Positions 482 to 23,075 of a stretch of 32,352 nt of DNA are shown piece by piece. Under the pieces are notes generated by a model. It saw only the letters and a program-made list of their open reading frames with translations. It was not told the origin of the DNA and searched no databases. A program made the position numbers and the translations under genes. The stretch is from assembly GCA_030916545.1 (NCBI GenBank), contig JAUPWI010000033.1, forward strand, positions 1 to 32,352, in the 5' to 3' direction. This DNA is from Patescibacteria group bacterium. Its GTDB lineage: Bacteria > Patescibacteriota > Minisyncoccia > Moranbacterales > UBA1568. The first letter of the stretch is position 1. Each line of letters starts with the position of its first letter.

Positions 482-1285
482 ATGAACCAAAATACGTCTA
501 TGAAACAAGGAATTATCCGGCTCGTTGAATCAAAAGGATTCGAATGGAGTATCGTTGCGGTTATCGTTGTTAACGCGATAACACTCGGGCTTGAGATAAC
601 ACCGGGCGCGGATTCTCTGCTGCCACTTCTCTCGGTAATTGATAAAATGGCTTTTACTGTCTTCGTGGCGGAACTCGGGCTCAAGCTGTACGCGTATAGA
701 AGGGCGTATTTTAGAGAAGGGTGGAATATTTTTGACTTCACCATTGTGGTGTTGACGGCTCTACCGTATCTCGACATAGTCGGTCTGGGTAATCTCACCA
801 TACTGCGTGCCCTTCGTATCTTGCGTGCCCTCCGACTCATAACGGTTGTGCCAGCATTTCGTCAGGTCATTGGCACGCTTGGGCGCTCTTTCTCGGGAGT
901 GGGTGCCGTAGGAGCTGTGCTTTTTGTAGCGATGTATGTGTCGAGCGTACTTGCCGCAAAGCTGTTTGGAGGGGTTGCGCCCGAGAATTTTGGCACCCTT
1001 GCCGCTTCGTTGCTTTCGATGTTTACTGTCATGACCATGGAAGGGTGGAGGGAGATTGTGGATCCGATCGCTGCGCAGATGCCTTTCGTATATCCATTTT
1101 TCATCCTCTACATTCTCGGTTGCGCCTTCGTACTCTTCAATCTGCTTATCACCGTGCTGGTATCGGCTTCAGAAAAACAGCAACAAGAAGAGCGTCTTCA
1201 TGATGAAGCCGAAACGAGAGCAATCGAAGCCAAGATAGATGAACTCCAAAACACGCTGAATAACTATCTGTCGAAGAAGGGCTGA
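482..1285 (+). CDS. Voltage-gated cation channel, NaChBac/Cav-like single-domain 6TM protein
   Basis: S4 segment RALRILRALRLITVVPAFRQ with Arg every third residue; pore FTVMTMEGW; S6 FVLFNLLITVLV; C-terminal coiled coil. Matches the prokaryotic voltage-gated Na/Ca channel architecture. Confidence 0.92.
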   Translation: MNQNTSMKQGIIRLVESKGFEWSIVAVIVVNAITLGLEITPGADSLLPLLSVIDKMAFTVFVAELGLKLYAYRRAYFREGWNIFDFTIVVLTALPYLDIVGLGNLTILRALRILRALRLITVVPAFRQVIGTLGRSFSGVGAVGAVLFVAMYVSSVLAAKLFGGVAPENFGTLAASLLSMFTVMTMEGWREIVDPIAAQMPFVYPFFILYILGCAFVLFNLLITVLVSASEKQQQEERLHDEAETRAIEAKIDELQNTLNNYLSKKG

Positions 1286-1505: not shown

Positions 1506-3380
1506 ATGAGGAATATGCAAAAAAGACCATCAGAATCGCTTCTCGGCGCTATTAAAGTATCGGTAGATGTGAGTGTATTGTCGCACGATCAACTTGGGGA
1601 GCTCTGTCAGGAGTTGCGACATTTTCTGATTGATACGGTCTCACGAGTGGGAGGACACTTCGGTTCGAATCTCGGCGTTGTTGAACTGACGGTCGCATTG
1701 CATCATGTGTATGATGCGAAAAAAGATAGGATCATTTGGGATGTCGGTCATCAGGCGTACGCGCATAAGGTGTTGACTGGGAGAGGAGGACAGTTGCACA
1801 CGATCCGGAAGAAGGGTGGACTCGCACCGTTTCCCAAGAGACACGAAAGCGAAAGTGATGCGTTTGGTGTGGGGCATGCGTCGACTTCCATCAGTGCCGG
1901 AGTTGGGATGACTCTGGCGCATCGGGATAAGGTCGGAGCACCACATGTGATCGCGATTATCGGAGACGGATCGCTGACCGGTGGTATGGCATTTGAAGCG
2001 TTGAATCATGCGGGTGATGTGGAAGCGGATATGCTCGTCATCGTCAATGACAACAAGATGTCCATTTCCCCGAATGTGGGCGCGATGACTCGCTATTTGA
2101 CTCGTCTGATTTCATCATCTGAATATTTGCATGCTCGGGAGACAGGGGGAAAACTTTTGGAAAGCATTCCGGCGCTCAAAGAAGTGGCCAGGCGCGTTGA
2201 GAAGCACGCCAAGGGAATGGTGACGCCAAGTACTATTTTTGAAGAAATGGGATTCCAGTATTTTGGTCCTGTGGATGGACACGATGTCTCCGCTCTTGTC
2301 GAACTTCTCAACAATTTGAAAAAGATAAAGGGTCCGCGGCTTCTGCATGTGGTGACAAAGAAAGGGAAAGGGTGTGTCCATGCTGAAAACGATCCGTTGG
2401 CACTGCATGCAGTCGCTTCGTTTGATAAGCTGACGGGGAAAAAGTGTGGAGAGAAGGAGATAGATAAGACGTTCACGTCATTTTTTTCCTCGTGGGTTGT
2501 TGCGAAAGCGAAAACGGATGAGCGTCTGCACGTCGTGACCCCGGCGATGCGGGAGGGTTCCGGTTTGGTGGAATTCAGTGCTTTGTATCCGACGCGATTT
2601 CATGATGTGGGAATCGCTGAACAGCATGCCGTGACTTTTGCGGCTGGTTTGGCGTGTGAGGGAAAGAAGCCAGTCGTCGCCATATATTCCACGTTTCTTC
2701 AGCGTGCGTATGATCAGTTGATTCATGATGTAGCGATACAGAATCTCGATGTACTGTTTGCCATCGATCGCGCCGGCATGGTCGGTCCTGACGGAGAAAC
2801 ACACGCTGGGTCTTTTGATCTTTCTTTTCTCCGGTGTATTCCGAATATGGTTATTCTGGCGCCGTCTGATGGAGATGAATGTGAGAGAATGCTCGATTTT
2901 GGTTTCGAGTATAGCGGACCTGTCGCCGTGCGCTATCCGAGGGCATGCGCGGTTACGGGAGAGGGTGCGAATGGGGACGAAAAGGCAATCGAAATGGGAA
3001 AGGCTCTCATGGTACGGAAAGGCACTCGGGTCGCAATACTTTCATTTGGAGCTCTCCTTGATCGGTGTCGTGACGTCGCGAATGCTCTCGACGCTACACT
3101 TGTCGATATGCGTTTCGTGAAACCGATTGACTATGCGATGGTGGAAGAGCTGGCAAAAACGCATGGGCAATTTATAACAGTCGAGGAAAATGTCGTGGCC
3201 GGTGGGGCGGGGAGCGCGGTAAATGAATACCTTTCCGCGAAGAACATTGCTGTCAGCGTGAAAAACATCGGACTCCCGGATCGCTTTCTCTCCCATGGAA
3301 CGCGCGATGAGGTGCTAGCGAGCGCGTGTCTGGACGCCGACGGTATCGAGCGGCAGATACGCGAATTTCTCAAACAATGA
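1506..3380 (+). CDS. dxs: 1-deoxy-D-xylulose-5-phosphate synthase
   Basis: GGHFGSNLGVVELTVALHHVYD, WDVGHQAYAHKVLTGR, IIGDGSLTGGMAFEALNHAG, DVGIAEQHAVTFAAGLA. The ORF track opens at 1407, but homology begins after the Met at 1506. Confidence 0.95.
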   Translation: MRNMQKRPSESLLGAIKVSVDVSVLSHDQLGELCQELRHFLIDTVSRVGGHFGSNLGVVELTVALHHVYDAKKDRIIWDVGHQAYAHKVLTGRGGQLHTIRKKGGLAPFPKRHESESDAFGVGHASTSISAGVGMTLAHRDKVGAPHVIAIIGDGSLTGGMAFEALNHAGDVEADMLVIVNDNKMSISPNVGAMTRYLTRLISSSEYLHARETGGKLLESIPALKEVARRVEKHAKGMVTPSTIFEEMGFQYFGPVDGHDVSALVELLNNLKKIKGPRLLHVVTKKGKGCVHAENDPLALHAVASFDKLTGKKCGEKEIDKTFTSFFSSWVVAKAKTDERLHVVTPAMREGSGLVEFSALYPTRFHDVGIAEQHAVTFAAGLACEGKKPVVAIYSTFLQRAYDQLIHDVAIQNLDVLFAIDRAGMVGPDGETHAGSFDLSFLRCIPNMVILAPSDGDECERMLDFGFEYSGPVAVRYPRACAVTGEGANGDEKAIEMGKALMVRKGTRVAILSFGALLDRCRDVANALDATLVDMRFVKPIDYAMVEELAKTHGQFITVEENVVAGGAGSAVNEYLSAKNIAVSVKNIGLPDRFLSHGTRDEVLASACLDADGIERQIREFLKQ

Positions 3381-4786: not shown

Positions 4787-5185
4787 ATGTTTATTAAACT
4801 CTACGCGATCGCCCTCCCGGTTTTCTTCGCTATCGATATGGTCTGGCTCGGGCTCGTGGCGAAGGATTTCTACCGGGGCCAGATCGGTTCGTTGATGAAG
4901 AGTGATATCAATTGGACGGCCGCAATTATCTTCTATCTGCTTTTCATCGTCGGGCTCGTGGTATTTGTCATCACGCCGGCGGTCGAGAAAGGTTCATGGA
5001 CATATGCACTCGTGTTCGGGGCGTTTTTCGGACTGATCACCTACGCGACGTATGATCTCACGAATCTCGCCACGCTCAAGGATTGGCCGATCCTGGTGAC
5101 GCTGGTGGATCTGGCGTGGGGCGCGGTGCTCGCGGCCTCGGTATCGGTCGTCACCTATCTTATCGCCGGCAAGATCGGAGTATGA
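4787..5185 (+). CDS. DUF2177 family membrane protein
   Basis: 132 aa: ALPVFFAIDMVWLGLVAKDFYRGQIGSL...FGAFFGLITYATYDLTNLATLKDWP...DLAWGAVLAASVS matches the DUF2177 pattern. Confidence 0.85.
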   Translation: MFIKLYAIALPVFFAIDMVWLGLVAKDFYRGQIGSLMKSDINWTAAIIFYLLFIVGLVVFVITPAVEKGSWTYALVFGAFFGLITYATYDLTNLATLKDWPILVTLVDLAWGAVLAASVSVVTYLIAGKIGV

Positions 5186-5961
5186 ATGACTATCTGATAC
5201 TCGCTCTCATACTGTTCGTGTACATGAGCCTCTGGTTCATCGTCTCCCTTCTCAAGAGGAGGAATGATGTGGCTGATGTGGCATGGGGCTTGGGGTTCGT
5301 GCTTCTCGCGTGGAGCGCGTTCGTGCTTTCGGACGGGCCGGGCGTGCGTGGGTTGCTCGTCAATGTCTTGGTCAGTATCTGGGGCGTGCGTCTGGCGTGG
5401 CATATCCATTCGCGGAACAGGGGTCGGATGGAAGACTATCGTTATCTCGCGTGGCGCACGGAGTGGGGGAAATGGTTTTACGTCCGTTCGTACGCACAGG
5501 TATATCTGTTGCAGGGATTCTTGCTTTTTCTTGTCGTCTCGCCGGTGCTCCTGATTAATGGGAGTGTGGCGATGGGGCTCGGTATGCTCGATGCGCTCGG
5601 CATGGCTGTCTGGCTTGTCGGTTTTTCATTCGAGGCGGTGGGTGATGCGCAACTCGCTCGGTTCATCAAGGACCCCACAAACAAGGGTAAGCTGATGCAG
5701 GGTGGACTGTGGGCATACACTCGTCATCCGAATTATTTCGGCGAAGTGGCACAGTGGTGGGGACTGTGGCTGGTCGCGCTTTCCGTGCCGGGTGGCTGGC
5801 TTGGTATCATCGGTCCGGTGACGATCACTTTTCTCATCCTGAAAGTTTCCGGCGTTCCGATGCTTGAGCGGAAGATGCGGGAGCATCCGGAATTCGCAGC
5901 ATATGAGCGGAGGGTGAGCATGTTTATCCCTCTACCCCCACGCAACATTTCTGAAACGTGA
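5182..5961 (+). CDS. DUF1295 / steroid 5-alpha-reductase-like membrane protein
   Basis: ATGA overlap with the upstream stop; NDVADVAWGLGFVLLAW, GLWAYTRHPNYFGEVAQWWGLW, and the C-terminal ERKMREHPEFAAYERRVSMFIPLPP are typical of DUF1295. Confidence 0.9.
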   Translation: MNDYLILALILFVYMSLWFIVSLLKRRNDVADVAWGLGFVLLAWSAFVLSDGPGVRGLLVNVLVSIWGVRLAWHIHSRNRGRMEDYRYLAWRTEWGKWFYVRSYAQVYLLQGFLLFLVVSPVLLINGSVAMGLGMLDALGMAVWLVGFSFEAVGDAQLARFIKDPTNKGKLMQGGLWAYTRHPNYFGEVAQWWGLWLVALSVPGGWLGIIGPVTITFLILKVSGVPMLERKMREHPEFAAYERRVSMFIPLPPRNISET

Positions 5962-15166: not shown

Positions 15167-16510
15167 ATGTCGCTTCCGATACCCGAGGGGGGTATCTGGC
15201 TGGCTCAGGCTGGTTCCAAGGAAAGGAAAACGAGTATTCGTTTCCCGACATTCTTCAGGAGGAAGACCGAAAATGATGAACCGGCGGACGGGTGTGACGC
15301 GGTTGATCATGAGCCGGCAAGTCTCGCGGACTTGCTGTCCCGTCTGCATACGAAAATCCATCATGGACAATCGAAAGCGTTGATCTGCATCAAGGAGGCA
15401 TCCGGATACCGGGTAGTGCACTGGTTTCGGAATTACGCAGCGTTTTCAGTCGTCGCCTCGAGCGCGTTGCTCGTTTCCGCGACGAATTTCGCTCATGGGA
15501 AGGATGTCGATTCATTGCTGTTCGGATATGCCGATGGCGCGGAAACGGCGGATGCCAGCGGGGATATCCCTGTCCGCAGAGCCGCGCAGGTTGGAGCGAA
15601 AGAGAATCTGTCACTGGTGCCGTTGGCGGCGGTAAGTCTGAACGCGGATCCGGACCAGAAAGACGACGCGACGCTTTTCGATATGGATGGCGTTTCTCTT
15701 CAGAATCAGATCGTGCTCTCCTCGCAAGCCGGAGGTCACCTGGCAATGGCGAAGGATCCAGAGGAAGACGGCGGGGTGAAGATCTATACGGTAGCTTCGG
15801 GCGACACCGTGAGCGGTATTGCGGCCAAGTACGGTATCACCTCGAATACGATCCTGTGGGCGAACGATCTCGATAATCCGGATGAGATCAAGCCGGGGGA
15901 TCAAATCTTCATCCTGCCGGTCGCCGGTCTTTCATACGTTGTCCAGTCGGGGGATACGATCGATTCGGTAGCGTCGAAGTATAAGGCGGACAGAGAAAAG
16001 ATCATCGCATTCAACAGCCTTCCGGCCAATGGGGAGCTTGCGATCGGAGATTCCTTGATCATTCCTGATGGGCAGAAGGAGGTTGTCGCATCGGGTTCGC
16101 TGGCGACCTCGGGGAGTCTTTCCCGGAGGCAGTACGCGACGACTGGTGGCGGTACGGCGACGGATATCTCGGGATCCCGAGTACTTGATGGACGCGCGGG
16201 GACGGGGCATCGGTTCCCGTACGGGTGGTGTACCTGGTATGTCGCTCAGAAACGCTATGTTCCTTGGGGAGGGAATGCCGGTACCTGGCTCTACAACGCG
16301 AAGTCTCTCGGATATAAGACGGGGAGGAAGCCTCAGCCGGGAGCCATCATGGTGACAACCGAGAATCGGTACTATGGTCACGTCGCCCTGGTCGAGAAGG
16401 TGAATGGCGACACGATCACGGTGAGCGAGATGAACTATGTTCGATGGGGGAAAACGAGCCGGAGGACCCTCTCAGCCTCGAGCCGGGCGATCAAGGGTTT
16501 CATTTATTGA
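15167..16510 (+). CDS. Secreted/anchored peptidoglycan hydrolase with two LysM repeats and a C-terminal CHAP domain
   Basis: LysM1 KIYTVASGDTVSGIAAKYGITSNTILWANDL...IKPGDQIFIL; LysM2 LSYVVQSGDTIDSVASKYKADREKIIAFNSL...LAIGDSLIIP; CHAP PYGWCTWYVAQKR...GAIMVT...GHVALVEKVNGDTITVSEMNY. Confidence 0.93.
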   Translation: MSLPIPEGGIWLAQAGSKERKTSIRFPTFFRRKTENDEPADGCDAVDHEPASLADLLSRLHTKIHHGQSKALICIKEASGYRVVHWFRNYAAFSVVASSALLVSATNFAHGKDVDSLLFGYADGAETADASGDIPVRRAAQVGAKENLSLVPLAAVSLNADPDQKDDATLFDMDGVSLQNQIVLSSQAGGHLAMAKDPEEDGGVKIYTVASGDTVSGIAAKYGITSNTILWANDLDNPDEIKPGDQIFILPVAGLSYVVQSGDTIDSVASKYKADREKIIAFNSLPANGELAIGDSLIIPDGQKEVVASGSLATSGSLSRRQYATTGGGTATDISGSRVLDGRAGTGHRFPYGWCTWYVAQKRYVPWGGNAGTWLYNAKSLGYKTGRKPQPGAIMVTTENRYYGHVALVEKVNGDTITVSEMNYVRWGKTSRRTLSASSRAIKGFIY

Positions 16511-16550
16511 TTCGACCGTATCTTCGATGATATATTCCTCTCTGTCCGCG

Positions 16551-16596
16551 AAAGAACGCGCGTGATTCGTCCGGGTCATCGCCGTTCTTTTTTTTT
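16551..16596 (+). terminator. Putative intrinsic terminator
   Basis: AAAGAACG(16551-16558)/CGTTCTTT(16583-16590) stem with a large loop, followed by a T-run. Confidence 0.5.
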
Positions 16597-16632
16597 CATT
16601 TCCTTTGGGGTATACTGTGGAGGGAATCGTCT

Positions 16633-18732
16633 ATGGGAAGAAACAAAAAGATATTCATATTTTTTGGGGCGGTGTTTTTTTTGTGCGCCGTTTTTTGGTT
16701 GGTGCCGGACATTGGTCTAGCCGCTGATTCGGGTGAGAATGAAGGTGGTTTTTTTGCTCCCGTGTCGAATGCTATTAAGGGGGCGATCGCCTGGGTTCTT
16801 TATAAGATTTTCACGGTGTTCGTCTGGCTGGCCGCGGCAGCGATCGCGCTGTTCAGCTTCGCGATCAATGCCGATTTGATTTCTGGGCCGACCGGACTCC
16901 TGAATCAGCCGGAAATCTACGAGCTCTGGAAATTCGTCCGTGATTTCTGCAATATCTTCTTCATCCTGATGCTCCTGATCGGGGCCTTCTCGATGGTGTT
17001 TCAGCTCTCGAGCTACAATGCCAAGAAGACGCTCCTTAGCATCATCCTTGCGGCGCTGTTCGTGAATTTCAGCTTTCCGCTTTCCCGGGTATTGATCGAT
17101 GTCTCGAATGTCCCGACGTACTTCTTCGCCCAGCAGATAATGGGATCGAGCGGCGGCAGTTCGGTTTCCGAGGCGGTGAGTGCGTCCTTCGTGAGCGCGA
17201 CGGGTATGGAGAAGCTCTTGTTGGGGGATAAGGGAGACGACGCGGAGGTATCGACCCTGATCGTGGCCATCGTTTTCATCTTCATGTTTGCCGTGGCACT
17301 GTGCATCCTCGCGGTATTGTTCGTGATCCGGGTGGTTTCATTGACCGTACTCGTGATTTTCTCGCCGGTCGGATTCATGAAATTCATGCCTGGTGTCAGC
17401 GGCTATGCCGATGAATGGTGGAAAAAATTGGTCGGAAACCTGATATTCGCGCCGGCCGCCATGCTGATGCTGCTTGTATCGGTCCGTTTCGCCAATGTTT
17501 TCCAAACGTACAACACGACGCTTACCGGTGAGGCATCCACGGTGTCGGGAGATCCGGGATTGACACAGATATTCAGCGTCATGATGAAATCCGCCATTCC
17601 CATCATTCTCATCATGATGACCATTTCCGTCGCTCTGAGTTCCAAGGTAGCCGGAGTGGGCATCGCCAAGAAAGTGAATGACAAGATGATGGGCTGGGGG
17701 AAGAAAGCCTCTCTTTTGGCAGCCGGGGGTCTTGCGGGAGCTGGAATGTACTTGGGTGGACGCAAGGCCAAGGGCGCCGCGCTTGGGTGGAAGGAAAGAT
17801 ATATCGATAAGACCTGGCTTTCCGCGAAGACAAGAGAATCACGACGGAAAGACAAGGAAGAGGAGTGGAAGGGATATGGTCGCGGCGGCGCGGATGGTCG
17901 GAAAGCCGCCCTGGAAACCATTCAGAATCGGAAGATCTTCGATGCGGTCAAGGATAATAAGGATCGGAATACCAGCAATTCTGAGTTGTTGAAAAACTTG
18001 AATGAGGGTGATCCGGTAAAGGCCGCCGCCGCCGCACTTTCCTTGTCCGAGAATAAGGCGATTTCTAATCCGGAGGACCTTCAGAAGGCGACGAAGGCCT
18101 TAGAGGTCTTTGGAAAGAATGCTCCGCGTGAGACGAGCAAGCTGCTTGAAAACGCCCGATCGGGAGCATTCAGAATGAAAGCCGGAGAAATCGGGGATCT
18201 GTTGAATAGCGAGACGTTCGCGCAGCGTGATGCGAACGGCCAGGCGATGAAGAACGCCGATGGGAGCTATGTCATCGATACGAGTTCGAATCTGTATCGG
18301 GATTTCTCCTCCAAGATGCGCAGTGAAGGCCAGATCAAGTCTTTTGCGGATTATCAAATCCAAGGAGAAATGGCCCGTGTGGCGGCGACCGGCGCGGCTC
18401 CGGACGAGGCGAAGATCCGGAAGGACATCTACAACGATACGATCGGCAAGCTTTCATCGATCGATCTGGCGAAGCAGGGCAGTATTCATGATGCCGTAGG
18501 GTCGGACAAGGAATTGGCGAATTATATGAAAGAGTACGCCAAGAACAGGAAGAATTACGAGAAGACGATGGAGAGGATGTCAGCGGTCGATCAGGCCAAA
18601 GGGATTGACGCCGAGATTACGCCGACTGGGACAGCCGATTCCGCTGATGCGGATTCCGCTTCCGCGGCAGCCGCGCAGAGTCAGAGAGAGAAGCTCCGTG
18701 AGGTCGGACGACGGAATAATCGTCGAGCCTAA
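16633..18732 (+). CDS. VirB6/TrbL-like polytopic membrane protein with a long charged C-terminal tail
   Basis: Signal/TM N-terminus, about 6 TM segments including a VVSLTVLVIFSPVGFMKFMPGVSGYADEWWKKLVGNLIFAPAAMLMLL block typical of VirB6/TrbL-like proteins, then about 330 aa of soluble Lys/Ala/Glu-rich tail. Confidence 0.75.
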   Translation: MGRNKKIFIFFGAVFFLCAVFWLVPDIGLAADSGENEGGFFAPVSNAIKGAIAWVLYKIFTVFVWLAAAAIALFSFAINADLISGPTGLLNQPEIYELWKFVRDFCNIFFILMLLIGAFSMVFQLSSYNAKKTLLSIILAALFVNFSFPLSRVLIDVSNVPTYFFAQQIMGSSGGSSVSEAVSASFVSATGMEKLLLGDKGDDAEVSTLIVAIVFIFMFAVALCILAVLFVIRVVSLTVLVIFSPVGFMKFMPGVSGYADEWWKKLVGNLIFAPAAMLMLLVSVRFANVFQTYNTTLTGEASTVSGDPGLTQIFSVMMKSAIPIILIMMTISVALSSKVAGVGIAKKVNDKMMGWGKKASLLAAGGLAGAGMYLGGRKAKGAALGWKERYIDKTWLSAKTRESRRKDKEEEWKGYGRGGADGRKAALETIQNRKIFDAVKDNKDRNTSNSELLKNLNEGDPVKAAAAALSLSENKAISNPEDLQKATKALEVFGKNAPRETSKLLENARSGAFRMKAGEIGDLLNSETFAQRDANGQAMKNADGSYVIDTSSNLYRDFSSKMRSEGQIKSFADYQIQGEMARVAATGAAPDEAKIRKDIYNDTIGKLSSIDLAKQGSIHDAVGSDKELANYMKEYAKNRKNYEKTMERMSAVDQAKGIDAEITPTGTADSADADSASAAAAQSQREKLREVGRRNNRRA

Positions 18733-18747
18733 TCTTTTTCGAACGTT

Positions 18748-19980
18748 ATGCCAATCGAACTTCCGAATGAATTCTATCCCTTGCTGGCGGATTATGATCC
18801 GTCGGACCTTCAATCATATCGATCGGTATGGATGGCCTTTCGGGAACTTCCGGAGTTTTCTCGGAATCTTCTCACATCGGATGAGCTGCCGCTTGCCCTC
18901 AGGGATCTCTCCATAAAGTTCGACTTCGCTCAGTCGACGACGATGTTCGTTTCGGTGATGGTCAGGAAAATGATTTTTCGGGAGTGGGATGAAGAGCGGT
19001 CTCGGGCGGAATTGGTCGCCTGGTGCCAGGAGTTCGATCCGAAGAACGCCGCTCGCTCCACGGAAATATTTTCGGCAGTAAAGAGTGATATCCTGACGAT
19101 CATTCCGCGGGAAGAAGGGAAACCGGCGGAAGCGGAAAAACGCGTGACGGTGCAGATGACCCTTTTGGAAGCGCTCTCCCGGTATCCGCAGCTCGGACAA
19201 CAGACGATCACTGAAACACGCATCAAGCTGAAGACCAGTGTCGATCTGGTGCGTGGGTCATTGATAAACTGGCTGAAATGCTATCGCGAGGAGCTCGGTG
19301 TCGGGTATCATGACGCGATGCTGCGAGGGCAATTCCTTTTCCGCTCGCAGAACGGGATCAGGTTGACGGATGAGGAGCACGGACGAATCGGACTCATCCT
19401 TCGTTCCATCGAAGATCGGGAAGCGGTCGAAATCGATACGGAACACCAGACACTTCTCTTTCCTCCGTATTCCGGCCCTCAGAGTCCTCAGTCTGAACGG
19501 AAAGAAACTCCGGTATCGGAAGCTTCTGTGTCGGGAGTATTTCCTGTGGCGAAGGTCGCGGCGATGGAGGCTGGATCAGCACCATCTTCTGAGATTTCGC
19601 GGGCGGAAGTACGGAATCAGACCCTTGGTGAAACCGGATCCATGCATGTGTTGAGCGGTACCCGGTTTTCTCCGTCGAATCAGACCCTCGGAACGCTGCA
19701 TTTCTCCTCGAAACATGTACTTCCCGTGGAAAAGGAAATACGACCCGGGAGTGAGCCGTCGGGGAATGCCCTGAGCGCAGGGAATTTGTCATCGTCAGGA
19801 GGACCGGAGACTCCGAGTCAGGCTGTTCCTTCCGGTGCCGGACTGCCTGTTTTGGATCCTGCAATTCCGGATAGGGTCATCCGTCCGACGCCAGCGCCGA
19901 AGCGGGATGTGAACCTGAATTATATTCCGAAACCTTTCCGTATCGATCCGACCAAACGCGAACTGCCGGAGAAAGAATGA
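18748..19980 (+). CDS. Hypothetical cytosolic protein of the T4SS-like cluster; helical N-terminal half, Pro/Ser-rich low-complexity C-terminal half
   Basis: 410 aa ORF between VirB6-like and PrgI genes with short spacing; no recognised domain. Confidence 0.75.
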   Translation: MPIELPNEFYPLLADYDPSDLQSYRSVWMAFRELPEFSRNLLTSDELPLALRDLSIKFDFAQSTTMFVSVMVRKMIFREWDEERSRAELVAWCQEFDPKNAARSTEIFSAVKSDILTIIPREEGKPAEAEKRVTVQMTLLEALSRYPQLGQQTITETRIKLKTSVDLVRGSLINWLKCYREELGVGYHDAMLRGQFLFRSQNGIRLTDEEHGRIGLILRSIEDREAVEIDTEHQTLLFPPYSGPQSPQSERKETPVSEASVSGVFPVAKVAAMEAGSAPSSEISRAEVRNQTLGETGSMHVLSGTRFSPSNQTLGTLHFSSKHVLPVEKEIRPGSEPSGNALSAGNLSSSGGPETPSQAVPSGAGLPVLDPAIPDRVIRPTPAPKRDVNLNYIPKPFRIDPTKRELPEKE

Positions 19981-20016
19981 TAAGCTCATTCCGTGGTATA
20001 CTTTTCTTGAGTCCGT

Positions 20017-20436
20017 ATGATGCAATCATCAGTCCCGCAATACATCGATGTCGAAGACAAGATCGTCGGACCATTCACTTGGAAGCATATCGGTTGGCTT
20101 TTGGGGATGTGCGCGGTGCTTTTGGTCATGTATACGGCTTTCGATTTCCAGCTTTTTCTGATCGCTGGCGGGCCGACGGCGCTGACTTTTCTCGCTTTCG
20201 CGTTTTACCGGCCGTCCGGTATGCCGATGGTGAAATTCGTCTTCCACGGCCTTTTCTTTCTCTTCCGTCCAAAAGTGTCCGTATGGGAACGGCCCGTGCA
20301 TGTATCGAATACGCCGACGGCGGTGATGAAGCGTCCTGGATCAGCCGTGGTCGAATCAGCCAGCGGGTCGCGCGAGATTACCGAGGAAAAACTCAGGGCC
20401 CTCGCCGCCGTTCTTGATCGCCGGGGGAGCAGATGA
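20017..20436 (+). CDS. PrgI family protein
   Basis: SVPQYIDVEDKIVGPFTWKHIGWLLGMCAVLLVMY...LTFLAFAFYRPSGMPMVKFVFHGLFFLFRPKVSVWER, the typical PrgI pattern in conjugation-type systems. Confidence 0.88.
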   Translation: MMQSSVPQYIDVEDKIVGPFTWKHIGWLLGMCAVLLVMYTAFDFQLFLIAGGPTALTFLAFAFYRPSGMPMVKFVFHGLFFLFRPKVSVWERPVHVSNTPTAVMKRPGSAVVESASGSREITEEKLRALAAVLDRRGSR

Positions 20437-20491
20437 TCATCGGAAGAAGGTCTTTGGGCGAGGGGAATTAATATCGGAAAGTAGGAATGAC

Positions 20492-21181
20492 ATGGAATTT
20501 TTGAATCCGAAAAATCAGAATCCCGGAACGGTATCGAAGAGCAGTACGCAGCAGTACGTCGATGTAGAGGAGATCCGTGATGGAGTGGTCGTGCTGAAGA
20601 ACGGTTCGTTGCGTGCGATACTCCTGGTTTCTTCCTTGAATTTCGACCTGAAATCATCGGATGAGCAGGAGGGAATCATCCTGCAGTATCAGAACTTTCT
20701 CAACTCGCTTGATTTTCCCGTGCAGATAGTCGTGAGCTCTCGTCGGTTGAACATCGAACCGTATTTGGCGCTCTTGTCCGCGCGTGAAAAAGAGCAGGAA
20801 AACGATCTGCTGAGGTCTCAGATTTCGGAATACCGCGGATACGTGAAGGAATTGACCGAGGTGTCCAATATCATGTCGAAGTATTTCTACGTGATCGTGC
20901 CGTTTTCGGCCGTCGAGGATGAGCGAGGTGATCTGAAAGAGAAGTTGTTCGGATTGTTCAAATCGAAAGAGGCGGTCGAGACCCGTCCCGAACTTTTCCA
21001 GACCTATCGGAGCCAGCTTTTGCAACGCGTCGGACATGTGACGGCGGCGTTGTCGGGGACCGGAGTCCATGTCACAATGCTCCAGACGGAAGAGGTGATA
21101 GAATTGCTGTACAACAGCTACAATCCGTCCGTTTTCAGCTCGGCTATCCTGAGAAACATCGACCAGGTGGAGTTGAAATAG
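20492..21181 (+). CDS. VirB4/TraC N-terminal-domain-like protein, separate ORF
   Basis: TQQYVDVEEIRDGVVVLKNGSLRAILLVSSLNFDLKSSDEQEGIILQYQNFLNSLDFPVQIVVSSRRLNIEPYL resembles the VirB4-family N-terminal module. Start taken at the ATG at 20492. Confidence 0.75.
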   Translation: MEFLNPKNQNPGTVSKSSTQQYVDVEEIRDGVVVLKNGSLRAILLVSSLNFDLKSSDEQEGIILQYQNFLNSLDFPVQIVVSSRRLNIEPYLALLSAREKEQENDLLRSQISEYRGYVKELTEVSNIMSKYFYVIVPFSAVEDERGDLKEKLFGLFKSKEAVETRPELFQTYRSQLLQRVGHVTAALSGTGVHVTMLQTEEVIELLYNSYNPSVFSSAILRNIDQVELK

Positions 21182-21206
21182 GAGCGGATGCGATCAAGAT
21201 AACAGG

Positions 21207-23075
21207 ATGATGGTAAAGGCGATGAATCTGTTTAATCGGGGACAACAGGAAACAGCTCAGGGCTCCTCGGCGGCCGATTTTTCCTTGGCTTCTATGACGG
21301 CGCGCGATACGGAAGCGCTTTATCAGAAAGGAATCGCCACGGTTCGCGACCTTATTGCGCCGCCCGCTGTGCGCCTGAGCCCCAACATGATGCAGGTTGG
21401 CGACGTGTTCGTCCGGACCTATTTCGTCATCGCTTACCCGCGTTATCTTTCGACGAATTGGTTTTCTCCGATCATCAATCTCGACTTCTCCATGGATACG
21501 GCACTCTTCGTGCACCCGATCGATACGGCGAATATCCTGAAGCAGCTACGGAAGTCGTCCACGCAGGTGCAGTCACAGATATCCATCGAAGCCGAAGGAG
21601 GGAAAGTACGCGACCCGATGCTGGAGACGGCTTTCCAGGATATCGAGGCGCTTCGTGACAAGCTGCAACAGGGAACGGAGAAGTTTTTTCGGTTCGGACT
21701 CTATATCACCGTATACGGGAAAGACCAGGACGATCTGAGTGAGAAATCAAGCGCGGTGGAGTCGCTGCTCGAGGCGCAGCTGGTGTATGTTAAACCGGCC
21801 ATCCTACGTATGGATCAGGGCTTCGCCTCCACCCGTCCCCTCGGGACCGATACGCTGGACGTCGCGAACAATCTCAATACCGAGCCGCTTTCGACGACTT
21901 TCCCCTTTGTTTCATCGGATCTTTCGTCGGGTGACGGCATACTGTACGGCATCAACCGACATAACCATTCGCTGATCCTTTTCGATCGTTTCAAACTGGA
22001 GAACGCGAACATGGTCGTCTTCGCGAAGTCCGGAGCCGGAAAAAGCTATACGGTCAAACTCGAGGTGCTGCGTTCCATGATGTTCGGGGCGAGTATCATC
22101 ATCCTCGATCCGGAGAATGAGTACAAGCACCTGTGTGAAACGGTCGGAGGCAGCTTCATGAAGATCGCTCTCAATTCGACGGTCCATCTCAATCCGTTCG
22201 ATCTTCCTCGGAAAAATGATGAGGATGACGCGGAGAGCGTGCTTCGGAGCAATATCGCGAACCTGGTCGGTCTGCTTCACCTCATGCTCGGGATGGTCAC
22301 TCCGGAAGAGGACTCCATTCTTGATCGGGCCATCCGTGAGACGTATGCCATCCGCGATATCACCGCGCAGACCGATTTTTCAAAGCTGACCTCCTCATCG
22401 TATCCGACCATGTCCGATCTGTACGCCGTTCTCCAGAATATGGACGGGGCGGATTCGTTGGCGATACGGCTGGAGCGATACACGGAAGGTATATTCGGGG
22501 GATTCCTGAACAAACAATCGAATGTCGTGTTGAACAGTCAGTTGGTCGTCTTCAATATCCGCGACCTGGAAGAGGAACTCCGTCCAATCGCCATGTATAT
22601 CATCCTTCAGTTCATTTGGAATGAGATTCGGACGGAGATGAAGAAACGGGTGGTCGTGGTGGACGAAGCATGGGTGATGATGCAGCATGAGGATGCGGCG
22701 GCGTTTTTGTTCGGAATCGCGAAGCGGTGTCGGAAGTATTATACGGGTTTGACGACCATCACTCAGGATATCAGCGACTTCATGAACTCGCGTCATGGCA
22801 AGTCGATCGTGACGAATTCCTCGTTGCAGTTGTTGCTTCGCCAATCACCTGCCTCGATTGAGACCGTGGCGGAGACATTCTACCTCACCGATCATGAGAA
22901 GTTCCTTCTGCTTGAATCATCGGTCGGGGAAGGGATATTTTTCGCCGGGACGAAGCATGCGGCCATCAAGGTCGTCGCGTCGTTCAGCGAAGATCAGATC
23001 ATCACGTCCGACCCGCGCCAGCTCCTGGAAATAGAACAGGCGAAGAAGGATTTCGACGCGGGAGCCATGGAATAA
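21207..23075 (+). CDS. VirB4/TraC-type T4SS ATPase
   Basis: Walker A MVVFAKSGAGKSYTVKLEVLRSM, IIILDPENEYKHLCETVGGSF, Walker B KRVVVVDEAWVMMQHEDAAAFLFGIAKRCRKYYTGLTTITQDISDFM. Confidence 0.93.
   Translation: MMVKAMNLFNRGQQETAQGSSAADFSLASMTARDTEALYQKGIATVRDLIAPPAVRLSPNMMQVGDVFVRTYFVIAYPRYLSTNWFSPIINLDFSMDTALFVHPIDTANILKQLRKSSTQVQSQISIEAEGGKVRDPMLETAFQDIEALRDKLQQGTEKFFRFGLYITVYGKDQDDLSEKSSAVESLLEAQLVYVKPAILRMDQGFASTRPLGTDTLDVANNLNTEPLSTTFPFVSSDLSSGDGILYGINRHNHSLILFDRFKLENANMVVFAKSGAGKSYTVKLEVLRSMMFGASIIILDPENEYKHLCETVGGSFMKIALNSTVHLNPFDLPRKNDEDDAESVLRSNIANLVGLLHLMLGMVTPEEDSILDRAIRETYAIRDITAQTDFSKLTSSSYPTMSDLYAVLQNMDGADSLAIRLERYTEGIFGGFLNKQSNVVLNSQLVVFNIRDLEEELRPIAMYIILQFIWNEIRTEMKKRVVVVDEAWVMMQHEDAAAFLFGIAKRCRKYYTGLTTITQDISDFMNSRHGKSIVTNSSLQLLLRQSPASIETVAETFYLTDHEKFLLLESSVGEGIFFAGTKHAAIKVVASFSEDQIITSDPRQLLEIEQAKKDFDAGAME

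Follow-up and report, generated by a model that had tools for sequence, protein, structure and literature searches.

A single-domain voltage-gated channel gene with an unusual, possibly Ca2+-permeable selectivity filter in a genome of the Patescibacteria group

Analysis of a 32,352-nucleotide stretch of DNA from a Patescibacteria group bacterium (referred to here as the window) detected a complete gene for a single-domain voltage-gated cation channel, which is ordinary as a member of its family and unusual in its host and in its selectivity filter. We put at about even the chances that the product is a homotetrameric, voltage-gated, Ca2+-permeable channel, perhaps one that is not Ca2+ selective. 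The features of the window referred to below, all on the + strand, were as follows.

482 to 1285, +: single-domain voltage-gated cation channel of 267 amino acids (PF00520, phmmer, AlphaFold)
806 to 835, +: S4 gating arginines R109, R112, R115 and R118 (alignment)
998 to 1033, +: P1 pore helix, residues 173 to 184, with T182 at the place of NavAb Gln172 (AlphaFold secondary structure, alignment)
1034 to 1054, +: selectivity filter T1 M2 E3 G4 W5 R6 E7, residues 185 to 191 (sequence, alignment)
1061 to 1063, +: D194, aligned with NavAb Arg185, a residue that supports the NavAb filter through Gln172 (PMC12919392) (alignment)
1088 to 1279, +: S6 running without a break into the C-terminal helix, with a predicted neck and coiled coil like those of BacNavs (AlphaFold helix 203 to 266)
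4787 to 5185, +: DUF2177 membrane protein, whose homologue in a second channel-carrying genome lies directly 3' of the channel gene
5182 to 5961, +: DUF1295 membrane protein, present in 4 of 28 genomes of the family, both channel carriers among them

The open reading frame has an ATG start and no internal stop. Residues 18 to 237 of the product matched the Pfam Ion_trans domain (E value, 6.9e-43), and phmmer searches with the protein gave E values of 5e-48 for NavMs and 1e-39 for NavAb, to which it was 37% and 34% identical, respectively. An AlphaFold model obtained with an alignment of 12 sequences (mean pLDDT, 83; pTM, 0.53) contained the expected membrane helices, with a pore helix that runs up to the filter and with S6 and the C-terminal helix continuous, and its nearest solved folds were NavMs, CavAb and NavAb. 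By comparison with BacNav structures, the C-terminal helix would form a coiled coil. The S4 segment, LTILRALRILRALRLI, has an Arg at every third residue (n = 4), which confirmed the four regularly spaced arginines reported in an earlier note on this DNA. Of 62 aligned channels, 58 to 62 retained these arginines, and all of them had F61, E64 and D85, the partner residues in the voltage sensor; the counts take in one NavAb row with a wrong S3-S4 region. One Ion_trans domain and S4 arginines are the features of a BacNav, and the four linked domains of a eukaryotic Cav were not present in this protein of 267 residues. The channel would be expected to assemble as a tetramer and to be gated by voltage.

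The filter TMEGW, previously noted at 1034 to 1048, proved to be exact (residues 185 to 189; codons ACC ATG GAA GGG TGG). It aligned without ambiguity to T175-W179 of NavAb, and hence the motif reflects homology and not chance. The filter runs on past the Trp as R190-E191, and shortly past the Trp the alignment with NavAb has a one-residue gap at the place of Met181. Also absent was the Gln172-Arg185 pair by which the filter of NavAb is braced, with T182 and D194 found instead. The typical BacNav arrangement of TLESW followed by SM or AS was replaced by TMEGW-RE, which lowers the case for a canonical Na+ BacNav but not for clade membership, since several other members of the clade depart from it too. 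With respect to prokaryotic Cavs of the CavMr type, the Gly at filter position 4 was present as G188, and the uncharged Val at position 6 was not, R190 occupying that place. An Arg directly after the filter Trp was also observed in channels from two other genomes (L063 and L064; TMDGWRFE), a second case of a positive position 6 that branches elsewhere in the clade of the window channel.

Phylogenetic analysis was performed on 60 sequences with the seven filter residues removed; CavMr itself was absent from the set, and the NavAb, NavMs and NaChBac sequences had been checked letter by letter against PDB chains. The window channel fell within a NavAb/NavMs-like clade of 37 rows (support, 99/99), inside the TLESW channels, and grouped with three other channels of its own phylum (93/90). 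This is the placement that the earlier note had itself named as counting against a calcium channel, and phylogeny alone does not settle selectivity. Joining the window channel to the AnclNav-like rows (TLEDWTD and kin), whose assignment to AnclNav was based on TLEDWTD-type filters, was rejected (AU p, 0.0017) in this set without CavMr, itself assigned to the AnclNav group. Grouping with eukaryotic Cav domains alone, where branches are long, was not rejected (p, 0.156), and neither was a sister relationship to the clade member L026 (p, 0.24). A single group made up of the 15 Gly-4 channels in the clade was rejected (p, 7e-6), and parsimony required at least seven changes between Gly and other residues at position 4 on a tree with some open forks. 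These results indicated that the Gly-4 filter arose several times inside this clade, whose filters include TLEGWTS, TLEGWPD, TLEGWVEG, TLDGWSGE, TMDGWRFE, TMEGWPD and TTEGWPT. A link between the post-filter deletion and the loss of Ser-4 was tested and was not demonstrable with only two independent pairs. The branch of the window channel was long (2.04), and its filter has drifted to a calcium-channel-like form on a sodium-channel backbone.

The source genome (0.9 Mb; 92 contigs) is 96% complete. The earlier note had regarded a voltage-gated channel as unexpected in a small-genome lineage, and such channels were indeed rare there: the genomes with a clear relative, that of the window among them, amounted to 2 of 131 in the order, 3 of 384 in a sample of the class and 3 of 380 in one of the phylum, with 1 of 55 in another class of the same phylum, weak phylum matches at 23 to 29% identity (L017 and L019 to L023) not being counted as members. 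The channel was absent from the three other genomes of the same genus. One of these, G002, has in order an SGNH hydrolase, DUF2177 (84% identity), DUF1295 (70%), an NRAMP transporter (84%) and TypA (94%), and no channel or channel remnant was found at this locus (best tblastn E value, 1.6). Between the SGNH gene and DUF2177, the window carries the channel, dxs, an IspA-family gene on the minus strand and an unassigned membrane-protein gene; dxs (1506 to 3380), which adjoins the channel, is missing from the matching G002 stretch. In a genome of another genus of the same family (G018), a 44%-identical channel is located directly upstream of DUF2177-DUF1295 (71% and 59%). The chance in a random draw that both channel genomes carry DUF1295 is 6/378, ignoring kinship. 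Elsewhere in the window, a LysM-CHAP peptidase, a PrgI-family gene and a TraG-type P-loop ATPase occur in a row at 15167 to 23075, an arrangement suggestive of a cluster for type IV secretion or a conjugation-like process.

The family is common in the phylum to which Mariprofundus belongs (matches in 94 of 249 genomes, some weak) and rare here, as would be expected if the contig had come from a proteobacterium through contamination or misbinning. We consider this scarcely credible, as the flanking genes are arranged as in the same-genus genome G002, with identities reaching 94%, and the same gene pair adjoins a channel in a different genus of the family. The synteny with both genomes thus indicated that the channel gene is native. 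The channel travels or is retained with the DUF2177-DUF1295 membrane gene pair; a functional link to that pair is unproven.

Published work on filter position 4 has given differing outcomes in different backbones. In CavMr (TLEGWVD), G4S, G4D and V6T each lower Ca2+ selectivity, NavPp gains Ca2+ selectivity by D4G, and the CavMr filter swapped into NavAb gives no current (PMC7041947); according to a review, Gly at position 4 makes one-domain channels Ca2+ selective (PMC10120453). In February 2026, no prokaryotic Cav other than CavMr of Meiothermus ruber was said to have been identified, and the NavAb S178G mutant "LivAb" (TLEGWSM) was reported to have a PCa/PNa of <0.05 and to prefer Li+, while M181A mutants reached values of 0.36 to 0.47 and Q172N, which alters the Gln172 held by Arg185, gave no current (PMC12919392). 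The Gly-4 that had been put forward as a determinant of Ca2+ selectivity is therefore insufficient on a NavAb backbone.

Comparison with the characterized channels detected both shared and differing features. NavMs and NavAb have the same clade, six-helix fold, S4 and C-terminal helix as the window channel, whereas in their filter, TLESWSM, the window channel has Gly for Ser178 and Arg for Ser180 and lacks the Met181 residue, with Thr for Gln172 and Asp for Arg185 nearby. The T-x-E-G-W core, the acidic position 7 and the single domain are common to CavMr; CavMr differs in having Val and not Arg at position 6, in its clade (on the evidence of the rejected AnclNav-like rows, CavMr itself not being in the tree) and in an extended disulfide-bearing loop after the filter (PMC10120453) that the window channel does not have. 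LivAb likewise has Gly-4 on a NavAb-like backbone but retains Met181, Gln172 and Arg185 and excludes Ca2+ (PMC12919392), whereas the window channel is without those three residues. The filter differs from that of Cav3.3 domain I (TLEGWVE) at positions 2 and 6 only and has the same length after the Trp, although eukaryotic Cavs are four-domain proteins and the window channel has one domain and branches with bacterial channels. Because of G188, R190, E191, T182, D194 and the missing Met181 residue, the window channel is neither a CavMr nor a LivAb, and the published mutants do not predict its selectivity. No electrophysiology was found in the literature for any natural EGW relative in the NavAb/NavMs-like clade.

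In the reading that we prefer, a homotetrameric, depolarization-activated cation channel that belongs to the NavAb/NavMs-like BacNavs and occurs in a few Patescibacteria-like genomes would have undergone a filter shift from TLESWSM to TMEGW-RE. Gly-4 would open the outer filter entrance, the Met by which NavAb discriminates between Na+ and Ca2+ would be lost and Glu-7 would form a second acidic ring above Glu-3; these changes would most likely admit Ca2+, such that depolarization would lead to Ca2+ entry, alone or with Na+. We favor Ca2+ permeability on account of the loss of two side chains, those of Ser178 and Met181, and the gain of an acidic residue. The filter suggests, and does not show, Ca2+ passage, since the same Gly in NavAb yields no Ca2+ channel, and high Ca2+ selectivity is not to be assumed, given Arg-6 and the lost Gln172-Arg185 brace. 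Arg-6 is the main reason for doubt about Ca2+ permeability. As Q172N kills the NavAb current and the Gln is absent here, either the filter must have another kind of brace or conduction may be poor.

At the mouth, divalent ions would be repelled by a ring of positive charge at position 6, and it is possible, if doubtful, that the protein is an EGW variant without Ca2+ entry that is selective for monovalent ions (Na+ or Li+). The position inside the TLESW clade and the exclusion of Ca2+ by NavAb S178G are consistent with such a channel, but that mutant retains the three residues that are replaced or missing here, and position 7 of the window channel is acidic. The strong form of our preferred reading, which overlaps it, is that of a highly Ca2+-selective native prokaryotic Cav independent of CavMr. 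The near match to Cav3.3 domain I and the role of Gly-4 in CavMr and in NavPp D4G argue for this; we nevertheless consider it unlikely, given an Arg at position 6 where CavMr needs Val, a clade that is wrong for simple descent from CavMr-like channels and the absence of current when NavAb carries the CavMr filter. The earlier proposal of a native Cav-type channel was thus upheld in part, for a complete voltage-gated channel in a small-genome lineage and for the resemblance of the filter to those of CavMr (PMC7041947) and Cav3.3 domain I; a native Cav is possible but unproven because of the TLESW-clade placement, the insufficiency of Gly-4 on the NavAb backbone and the Arg at position 6, and the claim of Ca2+ selectivity was a fair hypothesis resting on one residue.

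It is improbable that the channel is decaying or non-conducting through reduced-genome drift that broke the filter brace (Thr in place of Gln172, Asp in place of Arg185 and one deletion). The long branch, the brace loss and the absence of the gene from the three other genomes of the genus would fit decay, but the frame is full length, all voltage-sensor residues and the TxEGW core are intact, and L026 has a similar Gln-to-Lys and Arg-to-Asp change together with EGW, which suggests a second way of bracing.

With regard to calcium handling, a sodium-calcium exchanger (PF01699) was not found in the source genome. Three P-type ATPases were present, one of which (L121) scored best against PMR1-type Ca2+ ATPases, below the curated cutoff, and hence a Ca2+ efflux pump is possible. 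Our guess at the role of the preferred, Ca2+-permeable channel in the cell is a burst of cation entry that is reset by pumps.

Other EGW channels were observed during these analyses. In 4 of 249 genomes, two complete single-domain channel genes lie in tandem and differ in their EGW filters, one having TMEGWPD or TSEGWPD and the other TTEGWPT or TTEGWPS (L115:5902-7608, L117:53-1782, L119:5091-6902 and, in G923, L039/L057). Each of the two kinds of subunit has a clade of its own (98/88 and 100/98), and the two are 46 to 58% identical, which indicated that the tandem duplication predates the split of these genomes; their sequences suggest a bacterial hetero-tetramer with two filter kinds. Saprospiraceae one-domain channels (L011:3456-4058 and L012:6001-6567) have the filter TVEGWNE, a long post-filter loop and a very long branch and match the window channel only up to the filter region. 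A contig of a Verrucomicrobiaceae MAG (L013) encodes fragments of a eukaryote-like Cav/Nav with four domains, spread over several frames, and is probably eukaryotic contamination.

The Gly-4 rule drawn from CavMr fails once Gly-4 is put into NavAb, and natural NavAb-like EGW channels with further filter changes can show what else Ca2+ selectivity requires. Tentatively, Cav-like filters may have evolved several times in the NavAb/NavMs clade, the window channel being one native Ca2+ channel with a filter brace and a position-6 Arg that are not seen in the characterized channels compared. No report of a reduced, probably host-dependent bacterium with a voltage-gated cation channel was found in the literature searched, and such a channel would raise the question of its use there.
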